DNA of 45,024 nt. It comes from a virus. A model generated the notes under the pieces. The model did no database searches. It had not been told where the DNA came from and saw only the letters and a program-made list of their open reading frames with translations. A program made the translations under genes and the position numbers. Positions 1 through 45,024 of the stretch are shown here, piece after piece (position 1 is the first letter of the stretch; each line of letters starts with the position of its first letter). The stretch lies in IMG/VR virus record IMGVR_UViG_3300048593_000163, positions 1-45,024 of that record, one strand, 5' to 3'.

Positions 1-176
1 TTTCGTCCTAGAACGGTGGGTCGTCTGACTCGGGTTTGACTACGGCGAGTTTTGTGGCAGCCACTTCTTAAACTTGATTGTCTCCCACTTCTTATACCTT
101 TCGATGTAGTTAGCCGGACCACGAACCTCAGAGATGTAAGTGTGTGGGCTATGAAGTTCAATGTACTGCTTAGCAG
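1..176. repeat. Terminal overlap, left copy
   Basis: These bases recur at 44848-45024 with one difference: the T run at about 51-54 has four T here and five in the right copy. This is what an assembler leaves at the ends of a circular or circularly permuted genome. A true short terminal repeat is less likely, because the overlap falls inside a gene and one copy has a homopolymer indel. The unique genome length is about 44.85 kb. Confidence 0.95.
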
Positions 177-306
177 CTTCAGACGTAGGCAGTATTGCCA
201 TTAAGAAGAAGTGTTCGCGGTTGGGTGTATAGCAGTCGCCTTCAATAAGCACTGAGCCAAAGATTTCGAAGAGGCCAGTGCGCGATGGTCTGGAACAGTT
301 AATCAT
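40..306 (-). CDS. Small protein of unknown function, C-terminus shortened by a T indel
   Basis: The function is not recognised. The gene starts at an ATG (306-304) preceded by the leader sequence CTTGGAGATAACAC, which is shared with the gene at 44416-44781. Its 5' leader is the 3' product of the hammerhead ribozyme at 330-379. As written the protein has 88 residues and ends in QNSP because the T run here has four T. With the five-T version seen at the other end of the window, the frame continues 14 residues past LPQ to give about 99 residues and ends in the acidic tail ESDDPPF. The stop codon would then lie at 44855-44857, touching the second ribozyme copy. An acidic tail ending in PF resembles the C-terminal tip of bacterial SSB proteins, but nothing else in the protein looks like SSB. 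The longer form is probably the real one. Confidence 0.75.
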   Translation of the reverse strand: MINCSRPSRTGLFEIFGSVLIEGDCYTPNREHFFLMAILPTSEAAKQYIELHSPHTYISEVRGPANYIERYKKWETIKFKKWLPQNSP

Positions 307-380
307 GTGTTATCTCCAAGTAAGTGAACGGACTCATCAGTGGCAGCACAACTGCCAGACCGCCGCAGCGGTTTCGTCCT
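306..380 (-). repeat. 75-bp direct repeat: ribozyme plus ribosome binding leader, copy A
   Basis: This stretch is identical over 75 bp to 44782-44856. It contains a complete hammerhead ribozyme followed by the leader with the GGAG ribosome binding site up to the start codon. In the closed genome the two copies flank the single small gene that spans the window ends. That gene is therefore bounded by two identical ribozymes in the same orientation. Confidence 0.95.
330..379 (-). ncRNA. Type II hammerhead ribozyme HHR-1
   Basis: Read on the minus strand from 379 to 330, the order is stem II 3' strand GGAC, core GAAA, stem III ACCGC-TGC-GCGGT, cleavage triplet GUC, stem I TGGCAG-TTGTG-CTGCCA, core CTGATGA, and stem II 5' strand GTCC. 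All invariant hammerhead core residues are present, and the permutation opened at stem II defines type II. Cleavage is predicted between 358 and 357, leaving a 51-nt leader in front of the gene starting at 306. The upstream gene's stop codon (382-380) abuts stem II. Two sequence-divergent ribozymes on the other strand (2145-2200, 2665-2723) keep the pairing through compensatory changes, which argues for a functional RNA. Confidence 0.92.
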
Positions 381-634
381 CAGTCAACTTCAAGAAAAGC
401 AAGGCCAAAGTCTTCTTCGAGAAGGTCAAGCACTTTCTGTTTCGTAGGTCCAACAGCGAGAACTTTGCCAAGCTCATTAACAGCGAACCACTTGCAGTTT
501 TCGTGAATCGCTGGGTAAGCGGCCCTGGGCGCTTCGTCGAAACGAACCAGCGTGACTCCGATGTTTGAGGTCAAGGAAGTCAGTGCAGTCGCGGTGTGGC
601 TTGTGGTCAGCAGCGCTTTGAAGATGTCGGTCAT
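380..634 (-). CDS. 84-residue protein of unknown function
   Basis: The ATG at 634-632 is chosen because a strong ribosome binding site, GAGGAGATAACTCAA, directly precedes it and matches the leader style of the other ribozyme-linked genes. The open frame continues upstream to an ATG at 757, which has no ribosome binding site. That extension overlaps the inverted repeat shared with 1653-1739, so it is probably leader rather than coding. The protein starts MTDIFKALLTTS and has no recognised domain. A central segment reads HENCKWFAVNELGKVLAVG, followed by an acidic helix. It is the last gene before the divergent repeat region, and its stop codon touches the ribozyme at 330-379. Confidence 0.7.
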   Translation of the reverse strand: MTDIFKALLTTSHTATALTSLTSNIGVTLVRFDEAPRAAYPAIHENCKWFAVNELGKVLAVGPTKQKVLDLLEEDFGLAFLEVD

Positions 635-659
635 TTGAGTTATCTCCTCAGGTTGAGTC

Positions 660-750
660 GTGTCGATCGGAAGTCGATCGACGACAGTTGAATTATCGAC
701 TATTCGAGGATTGATGTCTAGTGGAATCTGTGTTTTGGGCAAAATAATTT
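660..750. repeat. Imperfect inverted repeat, left arm
   Basis: The complement of this arm matches 1653-1739. Shared blocks are AATTTTGCCCAAAAC, CAGATT, TAGACATC, TAGTCGATA and TGTCGTCGATCGAC. GTCGATCGAC is a perfect 10-bp palindrome in both arms. The arms sit at mirror positions, each just upstream of the first gene of its block. They could encode similar short peptides (ILPKTQI...VVDR), but most differences are not silent and neither frame has a ribosome binding site. A regulatory DNA or RNA role is therefore more likely. Confidence 0.8.
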
Positions 751-764
751 TGACCATATACTAT

Positions 765-781
765 ACGCGTACGCGTACGCG
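765..781. promoter_or_regulatory. Overlapping ACGCGT palindromes
   Basis: The sequence ACGCGTACGCGTACGCG is two ACGCGT hexamers and a partial third in tandem. It is largely self-complementary and sits immediately beside the left inverted-repeat arm. The compact palindrome would suit an operator or a methylation-sensitive site in the leftward promoter, but no binding protein can be named. Confidence 0.35.
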
Positions 782-810
782 AAATCTGCCTGGGAATGCT
801 GGCCCACAGA

Positions 811-1383
811 GGTACGATAGTCTAGTCGACTTTAAGATGAAAGTGCGTTTGAAAGCAGCTCATAGAGCCATGCTGCGTCGCGGCTGAGGCATCTCACAAG
901 ATTTTCTGAAACGTGCACATTTCGTATTGACATGAAAATTGGGTCATTTGAAGCGATTTAATGTCAGAGCACCAAAACGCACTTTCGGAGAGTCGGTCGA
1001 CTACTATATCGACTTTGTGTGAAGAGTGCGTTTGAACGCGTCCATTTTAAGCGATCTAACGCATCGATTACGACATTCGTAAGAATTTTTCATTTTTCGT
1101 CATTTGGTATTGACAAGCAAAAATCTGGCAATTTGGGCACCAAAATGTCTGCCTCGAAATGCACTTTCGGAGAGTCGGTCGACTACTATATCGACTCAAG
1201 TTTTCACACAAATTTTGGGCATTTTTGGCATTTCACGAAAAATCGTCACGAAAACGCGTCGAAGTGAGAAATTTTCACATTTTGTGTGATTTTCTATTGA
1301 CAAGCCAAAATCTGGCACTCTGGGCACCAAAATGTCTGCTTCTAAATGCACGATTTCACCTCGGTACGACTATTATATCGACC
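811..1383 (+). repeat. Tandem array of four related units with GTCGA-N8-TCGAC core
   Basis: Core sites lie at 811-830 (degenerate), 995-1013, 1177-1195 and 1363-1383. Units 1 and 2 share 36 identical bases (979-1014 and 1161-1196). Units 2 and 3 also align from TATTGACAAG (1108 and 1295) through GGGCACCAAAATGTCTGC to the core, with a period of about 185 bp. Unit 1 has the same layout starting at 925. The core reads GGTCGACTACTATATCGAC, with 5-bp inverted arms around an 8-bp AT-rich centre. A reverse-oriented relative lies at 1597-1613. The core resembles the CGACTnACTATA part of T7-class promoters, but no single-subunit RNA polymerase is encoded here. Confidence 0.8.
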
Positions 1384-1652
1384 AGATTTTGTGTGATTTT
1401 TGACGCGATTTAACGAGGATTCGCCAGAACGCACCAAAACGCGTTCAATTTTGGCATGGATAGAATATCGACACCAGCGGTTCGATGCGTTTTGACGCGG
1501 CCTTGACCACTAGATTTCACTTCAACGTGGGTCTAGTTGGACTGCATTTCCATTTTAAGCCGTTTGGATGACACCAAAACGCGTCGAACTATTCGAGTCG
1601 ATATATTGGTCGAGTCTAAGATCGGATGCGTCAAATGCCACGCAAAGAATTT

Positions 1653-1739
1653 GAAAAAATTTTGCCCAAAACGCAGATTGCGGTAGACATCGATCATCCG
1701 TTAGTCGATACTATCATTGTCGTCGATCGACACGACTGA
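1653..1739. repeat. Imperfect inverted repeat, right arm
   Basis: This is the counterpart of 660-750 on the opposite strand. It overlaps a 34-codon frame at 1635-1739 that begins MPRKEFEKILPKTQI. This frame has no ribosome binding site and is not called as a gene. The arm is followed by a leader, TTCACAGACTTGGAGATAAC, that resembles the leader downstream of the minus-strand ribozymes. Confidence 0.8.
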
Positions 1740-1776
1740 TCGACCCGCACAGTTCACAGACTTGGAGATAACACAA

Positions 1777-2127
1777 ATGAACGTTGCAGAAAAGATCGCA
1801 AAGCGCATCGACGAAGTCGACACTGCGAAGAAGAAAGCCTTCGAAGGCATCGCAAACTGCCGCACGTCCGACGCACTGTCGAGTCTGGCTGGCCACGTGG
1901 CTCATCTCGAAGGCCGACAAAGATGCCTGTATGATGTACAACACAGCTGGGGCCATAAACCTGAACCCGGTTACTTGGCCGTACTCCTTGCTGGTCGTGT
2001 CGCTCAAGGCGCTGACGATGGCTGGTCCGGCCGCGGAAATGACCTCCAACGATGCAAACACGACGGGTACTGCGAAGAGACCCGGTACTGGATTCAAGCC
2101 TGCGAATTTGCCCAAGGCATGGCATAA
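1777..2127 (+). CDS. First rightward gene, 116-residue protein of unknown function
   Basis: The ATG at 1777 follows CTTGGAGATAACACAA, the same ribosome binding leader that precedes the ribozyme-linked genes on the minus strand. The protein starts MNVAEKIAKRIDEVDTAKKK, is helical and charged at first, then Cys- and Trp-containing (CEETRYWIQACEFAQ). No family is recognised. Its stop lies 17 bases before the ribozyme at 2145-2200. A competing frame in the second half (about 1914-2221) also looks protein-like but would run through the ribozyme, so the frame ending at 2127 is preferred. A sequencing frameshift near 1915 cannot be excluded. Confidence 0.6.
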   Translation: MNVAEKIAKRIDEVDTAKKKAFEGIANCRTSDALSSLAGHVAHLEGRQRCLYDVQHSWGHKPEPGYLAVLLAGRVAQGADDGWSGRGNDLQRCKHDGYCEETRYWIQACEFAQGMA

Positions 2128-2144
2128 TTTCCTATTTACACACA

Positions 2145-2200
2145 AGACGAAACAGAGTATAACTACTCTGTCTGGCAGTTGTTCTGTCACTGATGAGTCT
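2145..2200 (+). ncRNA. Type II hammerhead ribozyme HHR-2
   Basis: The order along the plus strand is stem II AGAC (2145-2148), GAAA (2149-2152), stem III of seven pairs (2152-2158 with 2165-2171), the GUC cleavage site ending at C2172, stem I TGGCAG-TTGTT-CTGTCA (2173-2189), CTGATGA (2190-2196), and stem II GTCT (2197-2200). Relative to HHR-1, stem II changes G-C to A-T on both strands, stem III is rewritten yet still pairs fully, and stem I carries one G-U wobble. Cleavage would leave a 62-nt leader before the ATG at 2235 and a hairpin at the 3' end of the upstream message. Confidence 0.9.
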
Positions 2201-2234
2201 ATTTCACTGTTCCCATTTTAGAGGAATCCGTACT

Positions 2235-2660
2235 ATGTCGACCGCGATTGCACCCAAGAAACCCGTCCCACCACCTGCCGCTGTTGGAGCGCCTGCTGCT
2301 GGCAAGAAAGAGAAGCAACCCAAGGAGAAGGCCAAGAAGATCGACTTCCCTGGTCTGTTCATCAACGGCGATTATCACAAGCTGACCGCATTGCCGACCG
2401 GCCTCGACGCAAAGCTGCACAAGCCGCTCAAGAAGAAAGATTTCCAAGACGAACCGCTGTTCCTCGAGTACCAAGCCACCTTGCTCGACGAAAAGGCCAA
2501 GTCGCTTCGATCTCAAGCTGAAAAGCTCCGCTCCGTCGGATCCACCGCCTCGTCTGCCAAGGCCAAGACTCTGGTCAAGATGCAACAGCGCATGGCCGAA
2601 CTCATGGCTCAGCTCAAGGCCGAGGGCATGGATGTCGATACCTTGCTTGCTAGCAAGTAG
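2235..2660 (+). CDS. Lys/Ala/Pro-rich 141-residue protein of unknown function
   Basis: The ATG at 2235 has GAGGA nine bases upstream. The N-terminal 45 residues are low complexity, rich in Pro, Ala and Lys (PKKPVPPPAAVGAPAAGKKE). A short globular stretch (IDFPGLFINGDYHKLTALPTG) follows, and the C-terminal 70 residues form an Ala/Lys/Gln-rich helix likely to be a coiled coil. A basic disordered tail plus a helix would suit nucleic-acid binding or a structural adaptor, but no family is recognised. The gene lies between two different hammerhead ribozymes (2145-2200 and 2665-2723), so its mRNA could be released as a single-gene transcript. Confidence 0.85.
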   Translation: MSTAIAPKKPVPPPAAVGAPAAGKKEKQPKEKAKKIDFPGLFINGDYHKLTALPTGLDAKLHKPLKKKDFQDEPLFLEYQATLLDEKAKSLRSQAEKLRSVGSTASSAKAKTLVKMQQRMAELMAQLKAEGMDVDTLLASK

Positions 2661-2664
2661 CACA

Positions 2665-2723
2665 GGACGAAACCGCTACACGCCCATAGCGGTCTGGCAG
2701 TCGATGCTGCCACTGACGAGTCC
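2665..2723 (+). ncRNA. Type II hammerhead ribozyme HHR-3
   Basis: The order is GGAC (2665-2668), GAAA (2669-2672), a seven-pair stem III (ACCGCTA 2672-2678 with TAGCGGT 2687-2693), GUC with cleavage after C2694, stem I TGGCAG/CTGCCA (2695-2700 with 2707-2712), CTGACGA (2713-2719), and GTCC (2720-2723). The core uses CUGACGA instead of CUGAUGA. This is the position known to tolerate any base in hammerheads. It begins four bases after the stop of the 2235-2660 gene and would leave a 77-nt leader for the gene starting at 2772. Confidence 0.92.
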
Positions 2724-2771
2724 AGGTATAGTTGATGTTCGTTCATCTCATTACCTCACAGGAGCTTTATC

Positions 2772-2942
2772 ATGAGCCACAATGTCCAGACCACTTTCAA
2801 TGATGTCGACGTTGAACAGCTTGACACGGGTGCGATCTTCGCACTCGGCGCCTTCGTTCGCTTCGACTCTGCGACGCAAGTCACGGTCATTTGCACGTCA
2901 GACACTCAAGACCAGGTTCGAAAGATTATCACAGAGGAATAG
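2772..2942 (+). CDS. Small 56-residue protein of unknown function
   Basis: The ATG at 2772 follows CAGGAGCTTTATC. The protein, starting MSHNVQTTFNDVDVEQLDTG, is acidic, with a probable beta segment IFALGAFVRF and a second VTVICTSD. No family is recognised. It is the gene downstream of HHR-3. A small hairpin AGAGG-AATAG-CCTCT spans its stop codon, and the next gene follows 17 bases later with its own AGGAG site. Confidence 0.8.
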   Translation: MSHNVQTTFNDVDVEQLDTGAIFALGAFVRFDSATQVTVICTSDTQDQVRKIITEE

Positions 2943-2959
2943 CCTCTAGGAGATTAGGG

Positions 2960-3274
2960 ATGACCCCTACAGATTGGACACGAGAAGAAAAAGAACTCGT
3001 CGCGTTGATTCGCGCACTGGAAGCTGACATAGCTAGCCCAGTCACTCTCATCGAGCGTATTCAACGCGACGAAGCGACAATCGCTGCCTTACAAGCAGGC
3101 ATTGCGGCTGCCAAAGACCGCCAGGCCCATCTGCCTGAAATCTTGGCTTCTACTCGCGAGCGTCTTCGCGATCATCGAGCTAAAAAGCCAAGCAACGATG
3201 CTAAGATCGCCCGTCTACTCAAGCTCAAGGAGATGATGAATGAGCTGCTTGCAGAGATCAATCCGGATAGCTGA
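2960..3274 (+). CDS. Coiled-coil protein, 104 residues
   Basis: The ATG at 2960 has AGGAG about ten bases upstream. Almost the whole protein is predicted helix with heptad-like spacing (LVALIRALEADI, LIERIQRDEATIAALQAGI, LREILASTRERLRDH-like segments). Function is unknown. It heads a tightly packed run of overlapping rightward genes that continues to about 8600. Confidence 0.85.
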   Translation: MTPTDWTREEKELVALIRALEADIASPVTLIERIQRDEATIAALQAGIAAAKDRQAHLPEILASTRERLRDHRAKKPSNDAKIARLLKLKEMMNELLAEINPDS

Positions 3275-3500
3275 GGTCTTTGCTGACCTCGTGCGTGGTA
3301 ATAGGCCTAGGCCTGAGATCCGCATCACGCACGAGACCGGCACTCATCGCATCGGAGGCGACTGGATCGAGCTTCAGTTGCCTCGTATCAATCAAGACAG
3401 CCAACTATACGACATCACAGTTGCGATGCTTATAGAGGCATTTTATCAATTACCCTTTGGAACGTTAGGACTTAAAGATGACACTACCCAAGTGGGCTGA
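3240..3500 (+). CDS. Hypothetical protein, 86 residues
   Basis: The ATG at 3240 lies ten bases after CAAGG and overlaps the previous gene by 35 bases. The first dozen residues may not matter, but the following segment (PEIRITHETGTHRIGGDWIE) looks like an ordinary beta-rich domain. No family is recognised. It overlaps the next gene by 23 bases, as is typical of translational coupling in this block. Confidence 0.7.
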   Translation: MSCLQRSIRIAEVFADLVRGNRPRPEIRITHETGTHRIGGDWIELQLPRINQDSQLYDITVAMLIEAFYQLPFGTLGLKDDTTQVG

Positions 3501-4298: not shown

Positions 4299-4585
4299 GA
4301 GACTGCGGCACTAACATCCCCGTCGTTGCAGTGCAGCTCGATGACAGCCCAATCGCGAGACGCGCTGGTTTTCTGTCGGCCCCTTATAAGCATGTGATTG
4401 TCACTGCGCTTGCGTCGCTTAAGACGTATCATTGCACGGGCTTCATTGATGGTCGAACGATGCGCGTTGCATGTGAATACATCGGCGCTCACTTTGACGA
4501 TCTCAAAGATGGTTGCGTCGTTGACGTCGAGTTCATTCTTGGTGAAACGAAAGAACCAAAGGTGCCAGAATGCGTCCAACGATGA
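4274..4585 (+). CDS. Hypothetical protein, 103 residues
   Basis: It starts at the ATG at 4274, 25 bases inside the preceding gene, and ends 16 bases inside the next. The sequence alternates beta-like segments (NIPVVAVQLDD, HVIVTALASL, CVVDVEFILGET) without a recognised motif. It sits just upstream of the ligase gene, to which it may be translationally coupled. Confidence 0.75.
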   Translation: MASKYFEVRDCGTNIPVVAVQLDDSPIARRAGFLSAPYKHVIVTALASLKTYHCTGFIDGRTMRVACEYIGAHFDDLKDGCVVDVEFILGETKEPKVPECVQR

Positions 4586-5373
4586 AAGGCTATAAGCTAG
4601 GTGAGCCGGCCAACTTTGCGCATGTGAAACTAGACGGTCATTACCTTGAGGTTCATCAAGCTGCGAGCGGCCTCGTCACTTGTACGACACGGCATGGCAC
4701 TGAACTTGATCTCAAGTGGGTACCATCGCTCAAGGAAGCATGGCGTATGCCAGGCGAGACGACAGTGCTAGGTGAGCTCTGGTACCCAGGGCAACCGGCA
4801 TCTTACATCAAGACAGCCATCAAGAATAGGATTACTGGCTTGAGATTCTCTTGCTTTGCTGTTAGTACATGTGCGACCTTCGTTGAGTACAATGACTGGT
4901 GTCTGATGTATGGCTTTGCTGCAGTCGGGTTTTACATGCGCGAGTACTTACCGTGCAAGTACTGTCTTGGTCGTCTTGATGTGAATAACTTGCCGGACAT
5001 ACAGCACGAAGGCTTCGTTATGAAGGATGAGCTATGGGAGAACTGGCGTAAGTACAAGCCGTTCAAGACCATTGATCTTATCGTCGACGAAGTCACCGAA
5101 GGACGCGGACAGTTCACCGGTCTTGTTGGTTCACTCGTGTGTAAGACTACTGAAGGCCATGTGATTGCGAACGTCTCTGGGTTCACCTATGACGAACGGG
5201 TACAGCTCAGCGAATCGGACATCGGCCGCGTCGTTGAGGTCAAGTACCAGTACGTCGGTTCACAGGGTCGCTTGCGTCATCCGACCTTTGTCTGTTTCAG
5301 GGACGATAAGCTACCCGGCGACTGCGGCATCGACCAAGATGAGGATCTGCAATGCAAGTACAGCTCCAAGTAA
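4570..5373 (+). CDS. Divergent ATP-dependent DNA ligase-like nucleotidyltransferase
   Basis: Ligase motifs are visible in order: motif I with the adenylated lysine (HVKLDGHYLE, K20), motif III-like GELWYPG (E68 region), motif IV HEGFVMK (E146-K151), and motif V WRKYKPFKTIDLIV (about 158-171). A C-terminal beta-rich part (176-255) fits the OB fold. At 267 residues it is the size of minimal phage or bacterial ligases. It would seal nicks in phage DNA using ATP. ATG at 4570 is used, though the ATG at 4582 is possible. The motif I variant KLDG instead of KYDG and the low overall match are why confidence is not higher. Confidence 0.75.
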   Translation: MRPTMKGYKLGEPANFAHVKLDGHYLEVHQAASGLVTCTTRHGTELDLKWVPSLKEAWRMPGETTVLGELWYPGQPASYIKTAIKNRITGLRFSCFAVSTCATFVEYNDWCLMYGFAAVGFYMREYLPCKYCLGRLDVNNLPDIQHEGFVMKDELWENWRKYKPFKTIDLIVDEVTEGRGQFTGLVGSLVCKTTEGHVIANVSGFTYDERVQLSESDIGRVVEVKYQYVGSQGRLRHPTFVCFRDDKLPGDCGIDQDEDLQCKYSSK

Positions 5374-5576
5374 ATCCGGGCAATCGCTGGCACGCGTTCT
5401 GCAATCGCGAGTTTCCTAACATGGACGACGCTTGTGAATGGTTCAGCAGTGTGCGGGGTTCAGCATTTAAGACGAGGTTGGTTCCTCGTCACTCAGACCG
5501 CTGGGTTAGCGGTAAGACTCTTGAAGAAAGGTTTTGGGATAATGTCAGCAAAAGCAAAAGATCCCGAGAAGATTAG
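5352..5576 (+). CDS. Hypothetical protein, 74 residues
   Basis: The start ATG at 5352 lies inside the ligase C-terminus. The protein is basic and rich in aromatic residues (RWHAFCNREFPNMDDACEWF), with a charged C-terminal end. No family is recognised. It overlaps the kinase-like gene that follows by 35 bases. Confidence 0.65.
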   Translation: MQVQLQVNPGNRWHAFCNREFPNMDDACEWFSSVRGSAFKTRLVPRHSDRWVSGKTLEERFWDNVSKSKRSRED

Positions 5577-6213
5577 GCACAACTTCTGGTCGCGTAACAG
5601 ATGGTGCGCGCCTGGGTTCTTCGTATGGGAAGAAGGGTACACCCATTACTCGTACGTGACAGGCTATCATCCATCACGCGTTGGCCAGACCGTCTGGAAG
5701 GCTCTTGAGAAGCTGTGGGGTAACCCGGAGACTCAAGTGAATCATGAGCCATACCTAAAGTACATGGCTGATAAGATGCCGGCGGAAGACCTCGAGCTTG
5801 TGAACTCGAATCTGATTCGTCTTCACGCCGCGAACGAGGTCGTAGGCGACTGCACGCTTGAGAACATAATCTTATGCGATGGCCGTGTCTACTTTATCGA
5901 CCCCGGTCATCCTCGCGGACTTAAATGCAAAGAACTCGACATCGCCAAGATCCTGCAGTCGATGCGGGGTTGGGAGCACGTCAAACGACCCAAGGTGTTT
6001 GCGCCTAGGGAACCTGATCACTTGGGCATGTACACCCGAGAGACCGTTGCACTTTACATCACTCACCTATACAGGCTACTTAGACATGAGCACTCGCAAC
6101 AATGCCACGAATGGGCAAGACTCGAAATACACAACGCGAAAGAAAACCTACTTCATCGACATCGACGGGACCCTGTTGAGGAAGCCGGACAGTGGCGGCC
6201 AGCAATGGTCTGA
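5542..6213 (+). CDS. APH/kinase-fold phosphotransferase-like protein
   Basis: The motif GDCTLENIILCDGRVYFIDPG (residues 102-122) has the Asp and Asn of the kinase catalytic loop (D103, N108) and the metal-binding Asp (D120) of the aminoglycoside/choline kinase fold. It is close to the HGDLTLENI...IDP signature of phosphotransferases found in capsule loci. The 223-residue protein has a short N-lobe (CAPGFFVWEEGYTHYSYVTGYHP). The ATG at 5542 is chosen because AAAGG precedes it; the frame is open further upstream. It is followed by a HAD phosphatase, a sugar nucleotidyltransferase and a glycosyltransferase. A role phosphorylating a small polar substrate such as a sugar is plausible but not proven. 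Confidence 0.65.
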   Translation: MSAKAKDPEKIRHNFWSRNRWCAPGFFVWEEGYTHYSYVTGYHPSRVGQTVWKALEKLWGNPETQVNHEPYLKYMADKMPAEDLELVNSNLIRLHAANEVVGDCTLENIILCDGRVYFIDPGHPRGLKCKELDIAKILQSMRGWEHVKRPKVFAPREPDHLGMYTRETVALYITHLYRLLRHEHSQQCHEWARLEIHNAKENLLHRHRRDPVEEAGQWRPAMV

Positions 6214-6454
6214 GTTCACCGTACCTATTCAAGGGATGGTCGAGTGGGTCAATGACCTTGAGAAAGAAGGCCATTCGATTGTGTTAGTGACTGCAAGACG
6301 AGAGAGCCATCGCCTTCACACTGAGCGTATGCTAGCTAATGCTGGCTTCTGTTGGGATCACTTAATCATGGGTCTTACGAACGGCGAGCGTATCGTCGTT
6401 AACGATGGACCTTGTTCTGCTATTCGACTCGAAACGAATGTGGGGTTCAAATGA
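6086..6454 (+). CDS. HAD-superfamily phosphatase
   Basis: The HAD motif I TYFIDIDGTLL (D25, D27), the motif II region VLVTARRESHR and the late acidic motif IVVNDGP are all present in 122 residues. That is the size of minimal capless HAD phosphatases associated with sugar-phosphate metabolism. The start at 6086 overlaps the kinase-like gene by 128 bases and has no clear ribosome binding site, so it may begin slightly elsewhere, but residues from about 18 onward are secure. The ATGA overlap with the nucleotidyltransferase gene shows translational coupling. Confidence 0.75.
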   Translation: MSTRNNATNGQDSKYTTRKKTYFIDIDGTLLRKPDSGGQQWSEFTVPIQGMVEWVNDLEKEGHSIVLVTARRESHRLHTERMLANAGFCWDHLIMGLTNGERIVVNDGPCSAIRLETNVGFK

Positions 6455-7014
6455 TCGGCGTTGTTCTCGCTGCGGGTGAAGCGACTCGTATGCCCAATAA
6501 GCTCATGCTGCACGCTCCGAATGGCAAGCCGCTGATTCTTAATGCGATCGAGTACACCATGCGACACAGCTCGTATGTTGTGGTTGTGACCAGGAAGGAT
6601 ACGATTGTCGAAACGTATTTGAAGCAGCTGCGGTACAAGCTTGATATACGCTTTCAGACGCACGCAAGCGGAGTGATCGATGCTATATCGATTGCTGAAG
6701 CTAGTGACATTCTAGTGACGTTTGGAGATTGCTACGGGTACGATTGGCTACCGCCAGTAATGTCGAACTCCGCGACCGTAAAGCCAGGCGCCATTTCTGA
6801 GATGGACGGGTTCGGTTCACGTAAGTGGCTGAGCCGTAAGGACAAGGGTATTAAGAAGTCGTTCGTAGGCGCGTTCCGCTGCGACGCTTGGCATCCTAGC
6901 ACGAATGATCTCGTGTTTGAGTTTAATGATCATAACATTAAACCGCAAGAAGTAAAGACGTTGATTCAAGATTGTGGAACACCGAAAGGGTACGAAGGCA
7001 TATGGCAACGATAG
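6451..7014 (+). CDS. Sugar nucleotidyltransferase-like (MobA/GlmU-type fold) protein
   Basis: The N-terminus VVLAAGEATRMPNKLML is the LAAGxxTRMxxxK nucleotide-binding signature, followed by GKPLI and a later FGDCYGYDW that provides an acidic metal site. The family transfers a nucleoside monophosphate to a sugar phosphate or similar alcohol phosphate. At 187 residues it is shorter than full sugar pyrophosphorylases, so it is the core domain only. It shares an ATGA overlap with the HAD gene and abuts the glycosyltransferase. Together they look like an activation-and-transfer cassette. Confidence 0.75.
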   Translation: MIGVVLAAGEATRMPNKLMLHAPNGKPLILNAIEYTMRHSSYVVVVTRKDTIVETYLKQLRYKLDIRFQTHASGVIDAISIAEASDILVTFGDCYGYDWLPPVMSNSATVKPGAISEMDGFGSRKWLSRKDKGIKKSFVGAFRCDAWHPSTNDLVFEFNDHNIKPQEVKTLIQDCGTPKGYEGIWQR

Positions 7015-8051
7015 TGGTAAGTAAGTACGGCATGAAGTTCTACACGCGCGATTGCACGAAGAATGCAATCGGCGAGCAAGGCGAGACAGAAGGAGTACTC
7101 CGTCATCTTGTCGACGCCGGCCACCGCGTGCTCTACTTTGGGAAACACGATGGCGAGCTAGAGGGCGTCACGTTCCTTGAGCCGCACCTGACTGATCTCG
7201 ACGACATGAGCACTGCCGCGCATCAAGAAGCGTTGTGGAAGCTCGACACTGAGATGGTAGGTGATCACAAGCCTGATCTAGCGTTGCAGATCAATGGCAT
7301 GGCGCCCACGTTCTCATGGATTGACAATCCACGCGGCGCAAGGCTGCAAAGCTTTGCTGTCCGCATGTGCGGCCCTTGGCTTAATGTCCTCCAGTCGCTT
7401 AAGCTGAATCGCATGTGTATCAATAATGACCCGCGGTCTTATCCTCGTGATCAAGAGATGTCGTATGGCTGGGACTACGTCCGACCTAGTGTCTTGCTTG
7501 ATCAGTGCTCAGCGCAAAAGAAGATGACAGTCGGTGGCAAGGATTACTTGCGGGTCAGTCATTATGCCAAGGCTGAATCATTCGGCTGGCTGCCTCATAG
7601 GCCTAACCAGAAGAAACGCGACGTAGTGATCGTTGCTCATAGCCACTTTGACGACGGTCTTGGGTCGGCTGCAACTTGGCCTGACCTTGAGCGCCTGCTT
7701 GTCGAGACCGACTGCACAGTGTACGGCAAAGGATGGGACGGGACTGAGTGGCAGCGGCGCCACCCAGATAAGTTCCTTGGACCTGTGAAGCCGCTTGAGG
7801 TTCTTGACATCGTCAACGAAGCTAAGGCCTCGTACGTCTGCGATCACACGCCTGGCTTTAAGACCGGTAAGCCGTATGTCTTGACCTCGCAAGGCTGCGT
7901 GCCGTGCTGGTCGTACAACGGTGTGAAGCACGCAATCGAGAGCTACAAAGAAGACATCGAACTTGCGTATGAGCTTTACTCTCCAGACTATTCCGTTCTG
8001 GATGAAGCGATTGATAACCCTAACTTTGGAGGCGGCTATGTCCCGCGGTAA
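7002..8051 (+). CDS. Probable glycosyltransferase (GT-B-like)
   Basis: The 349-residue protein has an N-terminal Rossmann-like start (GETEGVLRHLVDAGHRVLYFG), a linker, and a second domain starting VVIVAHSHFDDGLG and containing YGKGWDG, VLDIVNEAKASYVCDHTPGFKTGKPYVL. The conserved order resembles the donor-binding domain of GT-B enzymes. The ATG at 7002 follows GAAGG and overlaps the nucleotidyltransferase by 13 bases. The donor is presumably the product of the upstream cassette. The acceptor could be virion protein, host glycan or modified DNA. Confidence 0.55.
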   Translation: MATIVVSKYGMKFYTRDCTKNAIGEQGETEGVLRHLVDAGHRVLYFGKHDGELEGVTFLEPHLTDLDDMSTAAHQEALWKLDTEMVGDHKPDLALQINGMAPTFSWIDNPRGARLQSFAVRMCGPWLNVLQSLKLNRMCINNDPRSYPRDQEMSYGWDYVRPSVLLDQCSAQKKMTVGGKDYLRVSHYAKAESFGWLPHRPNQKKRDVVIVAHSHFDDGLGSAATWPDLERLLVETDCTVYGKGWDGTEWQRRHPDKFLGPVKPLEVLDIVNEAKASYVCDHTPGFKTGKPYVLTSQGCVPCWSYNGVKHAIESYKEDIELAYELYSPDYSVLDEAIDNPNFGGGYVPR

Positions 8052-8271
8052 GGTCTTAAGATTGAAGAGAGGTCAACTTGCTTTCATCGCAGGCACTGCA
8101 GTGTACGCGCGTGACGGTAAGATCGATCTTTACGTATACGGCAACGGCGAGATCATCATGCCTAACGACGTAAGAAGCGTTGGGCAATTCGACACTAAAG
8201 AATCTATTGACAAAGTCTGGAGAGAAGTAAATGGAAATCAAGTGGACGAAGAAGATATGCAAGGAGCTTGA
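8038..8271 (+). CDS. Hypothetical protein, 77 residues
   Basis: The ATG at 8038 is preceded by TTGGAGGCGGCT, a strong ribosome binding site, which fixes the start inside a longer open frame. The protein is beta-rich and basic (KVLRLKRGQLAFIAGTAVYA, KIDLYVYGNGEIIMP). No family is recognised. It overlaps both neighbours. Confidence 0.75.
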   Translation: MSRGKVLRLKRGQLAFIAGTAVYARDGKIDLYVYGNGEIIMPNDVRSVGQFDTKESIDKVWREVNGNQVDEEDMQGA

Positions 8272-8599
8272 GGCTCAAGGTGCGATGATCTTTCCGATCG
8301 TAGCGAGTAGGATGCAACCTCCGGGTTGGCCTGATAGGATCATTGTTCATAAGAACTGGACCGGTTTCATCGAGTTCAAGGGCGAGAGCACTGCGATCAG
8401 ACCAGTTCAGGTTGTGGTCATGCGAAACCTGAGAAAGAGAGGTAAGATCGTGTATCTTGCGCGTGAACCTGGGATCCTGTATGACCCGTATGATTATCGC
8501 GTAGTTGGAGACTTTGGGTCGGCGGCTGCAATGCTTGAGCTTATTGTCCAAGATAACTGTCCAGCTGACTGTAAAGTTGAAACTGATTTTAGAAGTTGA
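8231..8599 (+). CDS. VRR-NUC family nuclease
   Basis: The 122-residue protein shows the PD-(D/E)xK core of VRR-NUC domains: PGWPDRII (D35), FIEFKG (E48, K50) and RPVQ (Q60). Stand-alone VRR-NUC proteins are common in phages and can cut branched DNA such as Holliday junctions, working as dimers. Here it would resolve replication or recombination intermediates before packaging. It is the last gene before a 280-base gap. Confidence 0.85.
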   Translation: MEIKWTKKICKELEAQGAMIFPIVASRMQPPGWPDRIIVHKNWTGFIEFKGESTAIRPVQVVVMRNLRKRGKIVYLAREPGILYDPYDYRVVGDFGSAAAMLELIVQDNCPADCKVETDFRS

Positions 8600-8736
8600 A
8601 AAACTATAATGCATTCTATTTTGTATCATATTGATATAGAATAGAATAAGCTACTTGGCTTTCTTAAGAAAAACCAATAAATATAGAGATAATAGTGCTC
8701 ATAAGATTTTGGAAATGTCTTTGGCAATTTTGGAAT

Positions 8737-8756
8737 GCAGTTGGCTGGACAGTTAT
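8737..8756 (+). repeat. 20-bp direct repeat, copy 1
   Basis: GCAGTTGGCTGGACAGTTAT occurs here and again at 8848-8867. A shorter inverted relative (ATAACTGTCCAG, 8553-8564) lies in the end of the VRR-NUC gene. Repeats of this kind around a transcription start are typical operator sites. Confidence 0.8.
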
Positions 8757-8847
8757 CTTGACTAGGTAAATGATGCGCTGGTCAGACTGTTTGGGCTTAG
8801 AATACTGGTTTTAAGATGAAATGTCGAGATAAGTGTCCAAGCGCTTC

Positions 8848-8867
8848 GCAGTTGGCTGGACAGTTAT
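8848..8867 (+). repeat. 20-bp direct repeat, copy 2
   Basis: Identical to 8737-8756 and 111 bases downstream. It ends four bases before the AGGAG ribosome binding site of the zinc-finger gene. A protein bound here could therefore block transcription or translation initiation. Confidence 0.8.
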
Positions 8868-8881
8868 ATTAGGAGATGATG

Positions 8882-9082
8882 ATGGAGAGACACGAAAGAC
8901 GAAAGAAGTCCCGCCTTGCAGCTTTACCGGCTGATCGTATATGCCCGTGCTGCGGCGAAGTTAAACTTTTAAGTAGAAGTTGGGTGATTAAAGATGACTG
9001 GATCTCATGCAGAGGATGCTACTTCACGAGCTTTTCAATACGCCCTACGAAACGAGAAGAGGATCCGAAGCATGCTCCTTAA
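8882..9082 (+). CDS. Small CxxC zinc-ribbon-like protein
   Basis: The 66-residue protein is very basic at first (MERHERRKKSRLAALPADR), then has two Cys pairs, CPCCGE and CRGC, that could hold one zinc ion. Three ATG codons stand in a row. The third, at 8882, has the best spacing from AGGAG (8871-8875). A small basic zinc ribbon next to a sigma-like gene suggests a transcription regulator. It overlaps the sigma-like gene by 89 bases. Confidence 0.7.
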   Translation: MERHERRKKSRLAALPADRICPCCGEVKLLSRSWVIKDDWISCRGCYFTSFSIRPTKREEDPKHAP

Positions 9083-9527
9083 GAGCGCAAGAGGTGATCG
9101 TATTCTGGCAGACGAAATGTTCAGTGATGTTGCACTCGTAAGACTGCCTAGGCTGTTCGAGCTCTATGACGAAGACAAAGGGCCAGAAGACAACTACATG
9201 CTTCGCAACATTCGGTGGTATGCGTTTAAGCATGTGAATCGTATTCGTCAAGGTCGACCCGAAATGCTCGAGCATGTAAGTCTTAGTGATAAGGCTGACT
9301 TCGTTGATGCCCTTGACGTTCTTGATGAACTTCACAGGTATCTTATTGAAGCAAACGTACTTTATGGAATGACTTATGGTGAGATAGCCCAAGAGCTCAA
9401 GTGGCCGACTCATATCGTAAGCAAAGCCGTGAAGGGCGCTAAAGAACGTCTGGCAGAGTGCTATGACGAGAATCGTGATTGGGTGTTAGTGAAACGTGTC
9501 ATAAGGATCTTATGCGATGCACAATGA
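8994..9527 (+). CDS. Sigma-70-family-like factor
   Basis: Residues 12-80 resemble sigma region 2 (ALRNEKRIRSMLLKSARGD, ADEMFSDVALVRLPRLFE, YMLRNIRWYAFKHVNR). Residues about 122-155 (YGMTYGEIAQELKWPTHIVSKAVKGAKERL) have the helix-turn-helix layout of sigma region 4. The size (177 residues) fits ECF-type or phage late sigma factors. It would redirect host RNA polymerase to phage promoters. It lies just upstream of packaging and head genes, as expected for a late-gene activator. The long overlap with the zinc-ribbon gene is unusual, but the N-terminal residues are needed for region 2. Confidence 0.7.
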   Translation: MTGSHAEDATSRAFQYALRNEKRIRSMLLKSARGDRILADEMFSDVALVRLPRLFELYDEDKGPEDNYMLRNIRWYAFKHVNRIRQGRPEMLEHVSLSDKADFVDALDVLDELHRYLIEANVLYGMTYGEIAQELKWPTHIVSKAVKGAKERLAECYDENRDWVLVKRVIRILCDAQ

Positions 9528-44781: not shown

Positions 44782-44856
44782 TGTGTTATCTCCAAGTAAG
44801 TGAACGGACTCATCAGTGGCAGCACAACTGCCAGACCGCCGCAGCGGTTTCGTCCT
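44782..44856 (-). repeat. 75-bp direct repeat: ribozyme plus leader, copy B
   Basis: Identical to 306-380. Perfect identity over 75 bp, when the two plus-strand ribozymes differ widely in sequence, means a recent duplication or ongoing gene conversion between the two copies. Confidence 0.95.
44806..44855 (-). ncRNA. Type II hammerhead ribozyme HHR-4 (duplicate of HHR-1)
   Basis: Sequence identical to the ribozyme at 330-379, with all core residues and stems. Cleavage is predicted between 44834 and 44833, producing a 52-nt leader for the gene starting at 44781. In the corrected five-T reading frame the stop codon of the window-spanning small gene (44855-44857) overlaps the first base of stem II. 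Confidence 0.92.
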
Positions 44857-45024
44857 AGAACGGTGGGTCGTCTGACTCGGGTTTGACTACGGCGAGTTTT
44901 TGTGGCAGCCACTTCTTAAACTTGATTGTCTCCCACTTCTTATACCTTTCGATGTAGTTAGCCGGACCACGAACCTCAGAGATGTAAGTGTGTGGGCTAT
45001 GAAGTTCAATGTACTGCTTAGCAG
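44848..45024. repeat. Terminal overlap, right copy
   Basis: Matches 1-176 with one extra T in the homopolymer near 44900. The five-T version gives the longer reading frame of the window-spanning small gene and is probably the correct one. Confidence 0.95.
44855..45024 (-). CDS. 3' part of the small gene that spans the window ends
   Basis: This is the C-terminal part of the gene that starts at 306. In this copy the frame runs on through KKWLPQKLAVV to the acidic end ESDDPPF and stops at 44857-44855, next to the ribozyme. The 5' part is outside the window end in this copy but present at 1-306. Confidence 0.75.
   Translation of the reverse strand, partial: AKQYIELHSPHTYISEVRGPANYIERYKKWETIKFKKWLPQKLAVVKPESDDPPF

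Follow-up and report, generated by a model that had tools for sequence, protein, structure and literature searches.

The virus record IMGVR_UViG_3300048593_000163 of IMG/VR, whose full 45,024 bases are called here the window, carries exactly four type II hammerhead ribozymes, and according to our analysis these probably act by self-cleavage, dividing the two divergent early RNAs of a tailed phage into messages of one gene or one operon. Self-cleavage is the best supported reading: on each arm the elements lie past a promoter-like site, each is preceded by a stop codon and followed by a ribosome-binding site, and their core and pairing are kept in relatives.

The four elements were returned by a structure-aware scan requiring intact CUGANGA, GAAA and UH core motifs plus three stems, and a separate pattern search agreed; the initial annotation had placed complete hammerheads at these same coordinates and strands (Table 1). 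Only one match was found in total in 40 order-2 Markov genomes of equal size (about 0.03 sites expected per genome), and a chance origin was rejected by this control. Terminators were also rejected as the identity of the elements, since no U-run follows stem III in the transcript sense. No type I or type III hammerheads were found in the window or in the relatives scanned.

Structure, covariation and the Rfam model

The catalytic core (C3 U4 G5 A6 N7 G8 A9, G12 A13 A14 A15.1, U16.1 H17) is intact at all four sites, and the core-flanking pairs 10.1-11.1, 1.1-2.1 and 15.1-16.1 are present in each. The permutation is the same throughout, with loops closing stems I and III and stem II left open. 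By core, core-flanking pairs and compensatory changes, all four belong to the structural class of the type II hammerhead.

The compensatory changes were followed in two sets of sequences. Among 12 distinct hammerheads of the clade, all 192 of 192 pair cells are standard, 16 double changes occur and the core is intact. Among 31 phage hammerheads, 97.8% of pair cells are standard (77.1% in shuffles) and 90 cells are double changes (24 in shuffles); the fetch pattern fixed some core-adjacent letters and left the pairing of stem I and inner stem III free, and it is there that the double changes mostly fall. This bears out the earlier description of sequence-divergent pairs that keep their pairing, with the correction that the two minus-strand copies are mutually identical and form part of a 75-base-pair (bp) repeat. 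The ends of the record overlap (1-176 equals 44848-45024 save for one T4/T5 homopolymer difference), so the map closes as a circle or represents a terminally redundant molecule of about 44.85 kb; with this overlap taken into account, the two minus-strand hammerheads are distinct loci flanking one gene.

The comparison with the Rfam type II model, which the initial annotation had proposed as a check, gave no match for any of the four even at an E-value of 10, and none reached the gathering score of RF02276 Hammerhead_II (37 bits). The same model detects five type II hammerheads in another phage contig (L042/L015) at 40-46 bits, so the search tool works and the sub-type of the window is beyond the reach of the model. 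The RF02276 score is a detection criterion: the four cannot be filed under that family as it is modelled, while their place in the structural class is unaffected. With R1, a covariance model trained on the 31 phage hammerheads, the four reach 65-68 bits, which is a consistency check only, as all of them are in, or identical to members of, the training set. The sub-type is marked by a 4-bp GGAC/GUCC stem II, a loop I of 5-6 nucleotides (nt), and several copies without a strong pseudoknot at the modelled offset. Pairing between loop I and the 3' tail, a pseudoknot that most but not all type II hammerheads possess, reads GGUG/CACC and AGUG/CACU in several relatives and comprises 3 bp in the minus-strand copies, and a set-wide test was moderately positive (P 0.003 with shuffled tails, 0.04 with swapped tails). 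Since the current Rfam model fails to see this sub-type, phages probably contain it more often than is now estimated.

Promoters, gene order and conservation in relatives

Two sigma-70-like sites, nearly identical to each other, occur in the divergent control region, one in each arm of an inverted repeat. A simple promoter-consensus scan was by itself not significant; the motif AGTCGATAMT occurs in the window only at these two sites, a count reached in 1 of 100 shuffles, and relatives have the promoter module at the same location (L036, contig 3300042879_002840, with two; L008, contig 3300031784_003532, with ten; L010 with one). A GGAG-type ribosome-binding site follows the predicted leader hairpin on each arm. 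About 1,030 nt probably separate the two transcription starts, from which the RNAs would extend outward across the hammerheads.

After the promoter, the plus arm has genes of 116, 141 and 56 amino acids (aa) and the minus arm genes of 84, 88/99 and 121 aa; on either arm, one hammerhead stands between the first and second of these genes and another between the second and third. Further genes follow on both arms, on the minus arm up to the helicase. The first gene of either arm is never preceded by a hammerhead and always followed by one. The next start codons (2235, 2772 and, on the minus strand, 306 and 44781) lie 51-77 nt past the predicted cuts, in agreement with the 50-80 nt of the initial annotation, whose predicted cut positions are likewise correct. 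The T4/T5 difference shifts the frame of the second minus-arm gene, which has 88 aa in the start copy of the overlap and 99 aa in the end copy; in the 99-aa reading, its TAG overlaps stem II of hammerhead 4 by one base. The small proteins flanking the hammerheads belong to no Pfam or PHROG family at significant scores.

Relatives of the window were found in IMG/VR, with the helicase at 84-87% identity in four contigs and the major head protein at 81-93% identity in others. Hammerheads stand at equivalent gene junctions in three of them: L036 has one before each of the 141-aa, 56-aa and 121-aa genes, L008 before the first two of these and L010 before the third. No relative was found in which such a junction is kept but the core is broken. 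The symmetry described at the outset holds in that both arms carry hammerheads, but it is not strict: minus and plus counts are 2+2 in the window, 2+3 around the divergent region of L036 and 1+2 in L008, and in L010 (and L009) one hammerhead is followed by the contig end.

The relatives also differ in what stands before each small gene. Ten promoter-leader modules are present in G002/L008, with eight on one arm and two on the other, mostly leading one small gene each, and each of the three L008 hammerheads comes after the first gene of such a module; the window has a single promoter per arm and hammerheads between genes. A promoter-led gene of L036 beginning MTVATLL is located on the other arm in L008, and L010 retains the neighbours of the 88/99-aa gene with one hammerhead between them, the gene itself and one hammerhead being gone. 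Small-gene cassettes thus appear to be exchanged among relatives, and promoter and hammerhead may be alternative means for a gene to own its 5' end. As each of the ten L008 modules leads a small gene, an own 5' end per small gene looks selected, whether through a promoter or a ribozyme. Since related small genes are promoter-led in one phage and hammerhead-led in its sister, the function is directly testable. In L008, the near-identical promoter-leader modules and repetitive spacers at 4333-9197 and 2195-3360 form an amplified array of early-gene cassettes.

The distant relatives L079 and L048 (most matched proteins 26-57% identical) have neither a hammerhead nor such a promoter module in the stretches examined, so the system may be confined to a close clade. 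Searches of phage collections with the control region, an L036 clade hammerhead and the first 24 kb of the window returned no related isolate. L044 (contig 3300042879_001539) and L036/L037 (3300042879_002840) come from one metagenome and end within the same gene; they are probably parts of one phage genome.

The window codes for terminase, portal, major head protein and tape measure, and also for DNA polymerase, primase-helicase, helicase and nucleotide enzymes; judged by these genes, it comes from a tailed phage that carries replication genes of its own. No integrase was found among 40 window proteins scanned; a prophage or integrase setting is frequent for clustered gene-flanking hammerheads but is not a requirement. 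Genes run outward from the spacer near 640-1770 and converge near 32.5 kb. Within this spacer, at 826-1448, as in L036 (1400-2400), repeats spaced about 185 bp contain TCGACTATATATCGAC-like and TATTGACA motifs, which are possible origin or regulator-binding sites. At 8994-9527 the window weakly matches phrog_1740 (E 6.6e-06), a family of phage RNA polymerase sigma factors; such a factor could serve later promoters.

Table 1. Hammerheads, repeats, genes and control elements of the window.
Feature	Position	Strand	Description
Type II hammerhead 1	2145..2200	+	stem II AGAC/GTCT; stems III/I/II 8/6/4 bp; predicted cut after 2172; 64.8 bits (R1)
Type II hammerhead 2	2665..2723	+	stem II GGAC/GTCC; stems III/I/II 7/7/4 bp; predicted cut after 2694; 68.3 bits (R1)
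Type II hammerhead 3	330..379	-	stems III/I/II 5/7/4 bp; predicted cut after 358; 65 bits (R1); directly abuts upstream TGA
Type II hammerhead 4	44806..44855	-	identical to hammerhead 3; stems III/I/II 5/7/4 bp; predicted cut after 44834
75-bp repeat, copy 1 (hammerhead, leader, ribosome-binding site)	306..380	-	identical to 44782-44856
75-bp repeat, copy 2 (hammerhead, leader, ribosome-binding site)	44782..44856	-	identical to 306-380
First minus-arm gene, 84 aa	380..634	-	no family; homologues promoter-led in L010 and L008
Second minus-arm gene, 88 aa (start copy) or 99 aa (end copy, ending at hammerhead)	40..306	-	
Third minus-arm gene, 121 aa	44416..44781	-	hammerhead-led in window, L036, L010
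First plus-arm gene, 116 aa	1777..2127	+	35% identical homologue hammerhead-led on minus arm of L036
Second plus-arm gene, 141 aa	2235..2660	+	hammerhead-led in window, L036, L008
Third plus-arm gene, 56 aa	2772..2942	+	hammerhead-led in window, L036, L008
Inverted repeat, minus arm (promoter and leader start)	673..750	-	78 nt, 79% complementary to 1654-1731
Inverted repeat, plus arm	1654..1731	+	78 nt, 79% complementary to 673-750
Sigma-70-like promoter TAGACA-17-GATAAT	692..720	-	same place in relatives
Sigma-70-like promoter TAGACA-17-GATACT	1684..1712	+	module recurs at same place in relatives
Predicted 5' leader hairpin, minus-arm transcript	660..685	-	
Predicted 5' leader hairpin, plus-arm transcript	1722..1744	+	
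Repeat-rich spacer between divergent promoters	826..1448		repeats spaced about 185 bp

Proposed processing and its alternatives

In the mechanism that we propose, a host-type RNA polymerase would start at the mirrored promoters, at about 685 on the minus strand and about 1719 on the plus strand, and each transcript would carry a leader hairpin and then the first small gene. During synthesis of the RNA, each hammerhead would fold between the upstream stop codon and the next ribosome-binding site and cut once. The upstream message would retain a 3' stem III hairpin ending in a 2',3'-cyclic phosphate, and the downstream message, bearing a 5'-OH end and the stem I hairpin, would begin 51-77 nt ahead of its start codon. 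The products would be single-gene messages for the first and second genes and an operon-length message downstream. Folded ends that lack a 5' phosphate would likely be protected from RNase E-type decay, and such messages would allow expression and decay to be set gene by gene. The analysis shows the sequence, core, covariation, position and strand of the elements, the promoter-like sites and their conservation; that they cut in the cell, and how this affects the stability and timing of messages, is what we infer.

A parallel to phage T7 had been drawn from the start. In its early region, RNase III sites allow a polycistronic transcript to be cut into gene-size messages with hairpin ends. RNase III is a protein enzyme leaving 5'-phosphate and 3'-OH ends, whereas in the window the RNA itself would be the catalyst and would leave 5'-OH and 2',3'-cyclic phosphate ends; as a statement of what the system may work like, the comparison is reasonable.

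Published work offers several precedents for cleavage: cutting has been seen in vitro for clustered hammerheads in tandem phage-type arrays and in E. coli for a triple array from A. tumefaciens, 14 of 18 consensus hammerheads tested cut in vitro, and an early transcript of the halovirus HF2 has its 5' end within three nt of a hammerhead cut (PMC3088659). Several observations weigh on the other side. The remaining 4 of these 18 consensus hammerheads failed to cut in vitro (Perreault; PMC3088659). In the window, folding z-scores are modest (-1.65 to -1.85), the lowest-energy fold of the minus-strand copies competes with the hammerhead fold, and the rate-enhancing pseudoknot between loop I and the tail is weak or absent in some copies, with none at 2145-2200. 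The copy number per arm varies among relatives and some small-gene junctions of G002 have no hammerhead, so that no single hammerhead is strictly essential. The role of hammerheads in bacteria and phages has been described as an open question (PMC6155905).

Among other explanations, identical hammerhead-leader repeats might act as recombination joints by which small-gene cassettes are gained, lost or swapped between arms, with cleavage being secondary. The identical 75-bp repeats flanking the 88/99-aa gene, the loss of that gene and one hammerhead between the same neighbours in L010, and the change of arms by genes between relatives would all fit; however, homology for recombination would not by itself preserve the exact cores and compensatory stems of the non-identical copies, and promoter-leader modules shuffle likewise, so we regard this explanation as improbable. 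Successive hammerheads could also excise gene-length RNAs, to be closed into circular messages by a host RtcB-type ligase or by the ribozyme itself, as eukaryotic retrozymes operate (PMC7761336). Two hammerheads bracket one gene on each arm of the window, the 5'-OH and 2',3'-cyclic phosphate ends would be suitable, and the predicted circles would measure about 522 nt (2173-2694) and about 370 nt (357 to 44834 across the closed ends). Yet several relatives and other phages (L017, L023) have a single hammerhead in the stretch examined, from which no circle is possible, and Perreault et al. sought circular or spliced products and found none (PMC3088659); we give circular messages a slim chance.

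Much the same small probability is assigned to a role as negative regulators, in which cleavage would uncouple or destabilise the downstream messages and tune protein ratios, perhaps conditionally. Predicted pseudoknot strength differs between copies and could set different cutting rates, but the cut leaves every downstream gene with a ribosome-binding site of its own, stem I would shield the 5' end as a hairpin, and no ligand-binding extension is present. That the elements are chance or decayed folds without activity is hardly credible: the missing Rfam match is outweighed by the low expectation per genome, the conserved positions, and the 100% paired cells and intact core of the 12 clade members.

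Hammerheads of other phages and known systems

In a wider survey of IMG/VR, a looser pattern yielded at least 116 new loci; the loci are fragments, so that both-strand arrays could be missed. Among the matches listed, 107 of the 116 new loci have a structured type II hammerhead, and 30 of these 107, all outside the clade of the window, carry 2-7 copies, in every case on one strand. The two-armed, both-strand arrangement is unusual and was seen, among the matches listed, only in this clade.

The survey revealed a regular position of the upstream stop codon. Among 157 distinct hammerheads of the matches listed, a stop codon (of upstream open reading frames of 50 or more codons) lies within -3 to +4 nt of stem II in 93, with peaks at -1 (33) and 0 (23), and a start codon with a loosely defined ribosome-binding motif follows within 30 nt in 113. 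Such a stop was found at 12 of 132 other GACGAAA sites of the same DNA (Fisher P 5e-21). The first hammerhead set has a stop within -2 to +4 in 29 of 38 cases; the tally becomes 30 (1+11+6+4+3+5) with inclusion of the four of the window, of which three qualify. The form UAG-GACGAAA is frequent where the stop abuts or overlaps stem II, and many unrelated phages share it.

With about 195 phage hammerheads behind it, this rule makes a specific mechanistic prediction. A ribosome terminating on such a stop would sit over the GAAA core and the 5' strand of stem II and so delay folding and cutting, and cutting might therefore be gated by translation, being possible only once the ribosome leaves the upstream stop. 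If true, this would tie message processing to completed translation of the upstream gene. We consider gating, an idea that derives from the stop-codon geometry, unlikely; genome compactness is an adequate, simpler reason for the geometry.

Multi-copy hammerheads flanking individual prophage genes were reported by Perreault et al. in 2011, who proposed message processing (PMC3088659), and the association with phage genes was repeated in a 2017 review (PMC6155905). The novelty that the initial annotation saw in a mirrored, multi-copy, gene-bounding layout therefore fails in its general form, and what stands is the unusual two-armed arrangement. The published type II hammerheads of bacteria and prophages (PMC3088659, RF02276) share with the window the core, the permutation, phage genomes, gene-flanking copies and the proposed function; the window differs in its sub-type, missed by the model, and in copies on both arms of a divergent early region. 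Clustered gene-flanking copies in the sense of Perreault 2011 (Fig. 3; two or more per transcription direction) are found on both window arms. The main text of the 2011 paper does not contain the term "stop codon" (PMC3088659), and PaP3, which it names, gave no strict type II match under the scan used here. Within the open-licence literature, the Rfam-invisible sub-type, the conserved two-armed layout, the alternation of promoter and hammerhead in one clade and the stop-codon rule are, to our knowledge, new.

The haloviruses HF1/HF2 (PMC3088659) are likewise lytic tailed viruses with a cut in an early transcript a few nt before a start codon, and the HF2 5' end was mapped, whereas the cuts in the window are predicted only. 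Unlike the window, they have a variant core, an archaeal host and one described copy, 13 nt upstream of a helicase gene. Tandem arrays of other phage contigs (L042/L015, L040/L069, L081, L137, L182 and others) repeat the same unit of stop codon, hammerhead, ribosome-binding site and small gene 2-7 times, but all on one strand, and some match RF02276 with a GGCU/AGCC pseudoknot. Type II arrays of 3-7 copies, always on one strand, were noted in unrelated phage contigs (L042, L040, L081, L137, L182, L192 and others). The hammerhead loci of L068, L069 and L071 are identical to that of L040, in contigs that are variously labelled Phycicoccus jejuensis, Streptomyces iakyrus (63,072 bp), an Eggerthellaceae metagenome-assembled genome and an IMG/VR virus (63,029 bp); they probably represent one phage or cross-contamination.

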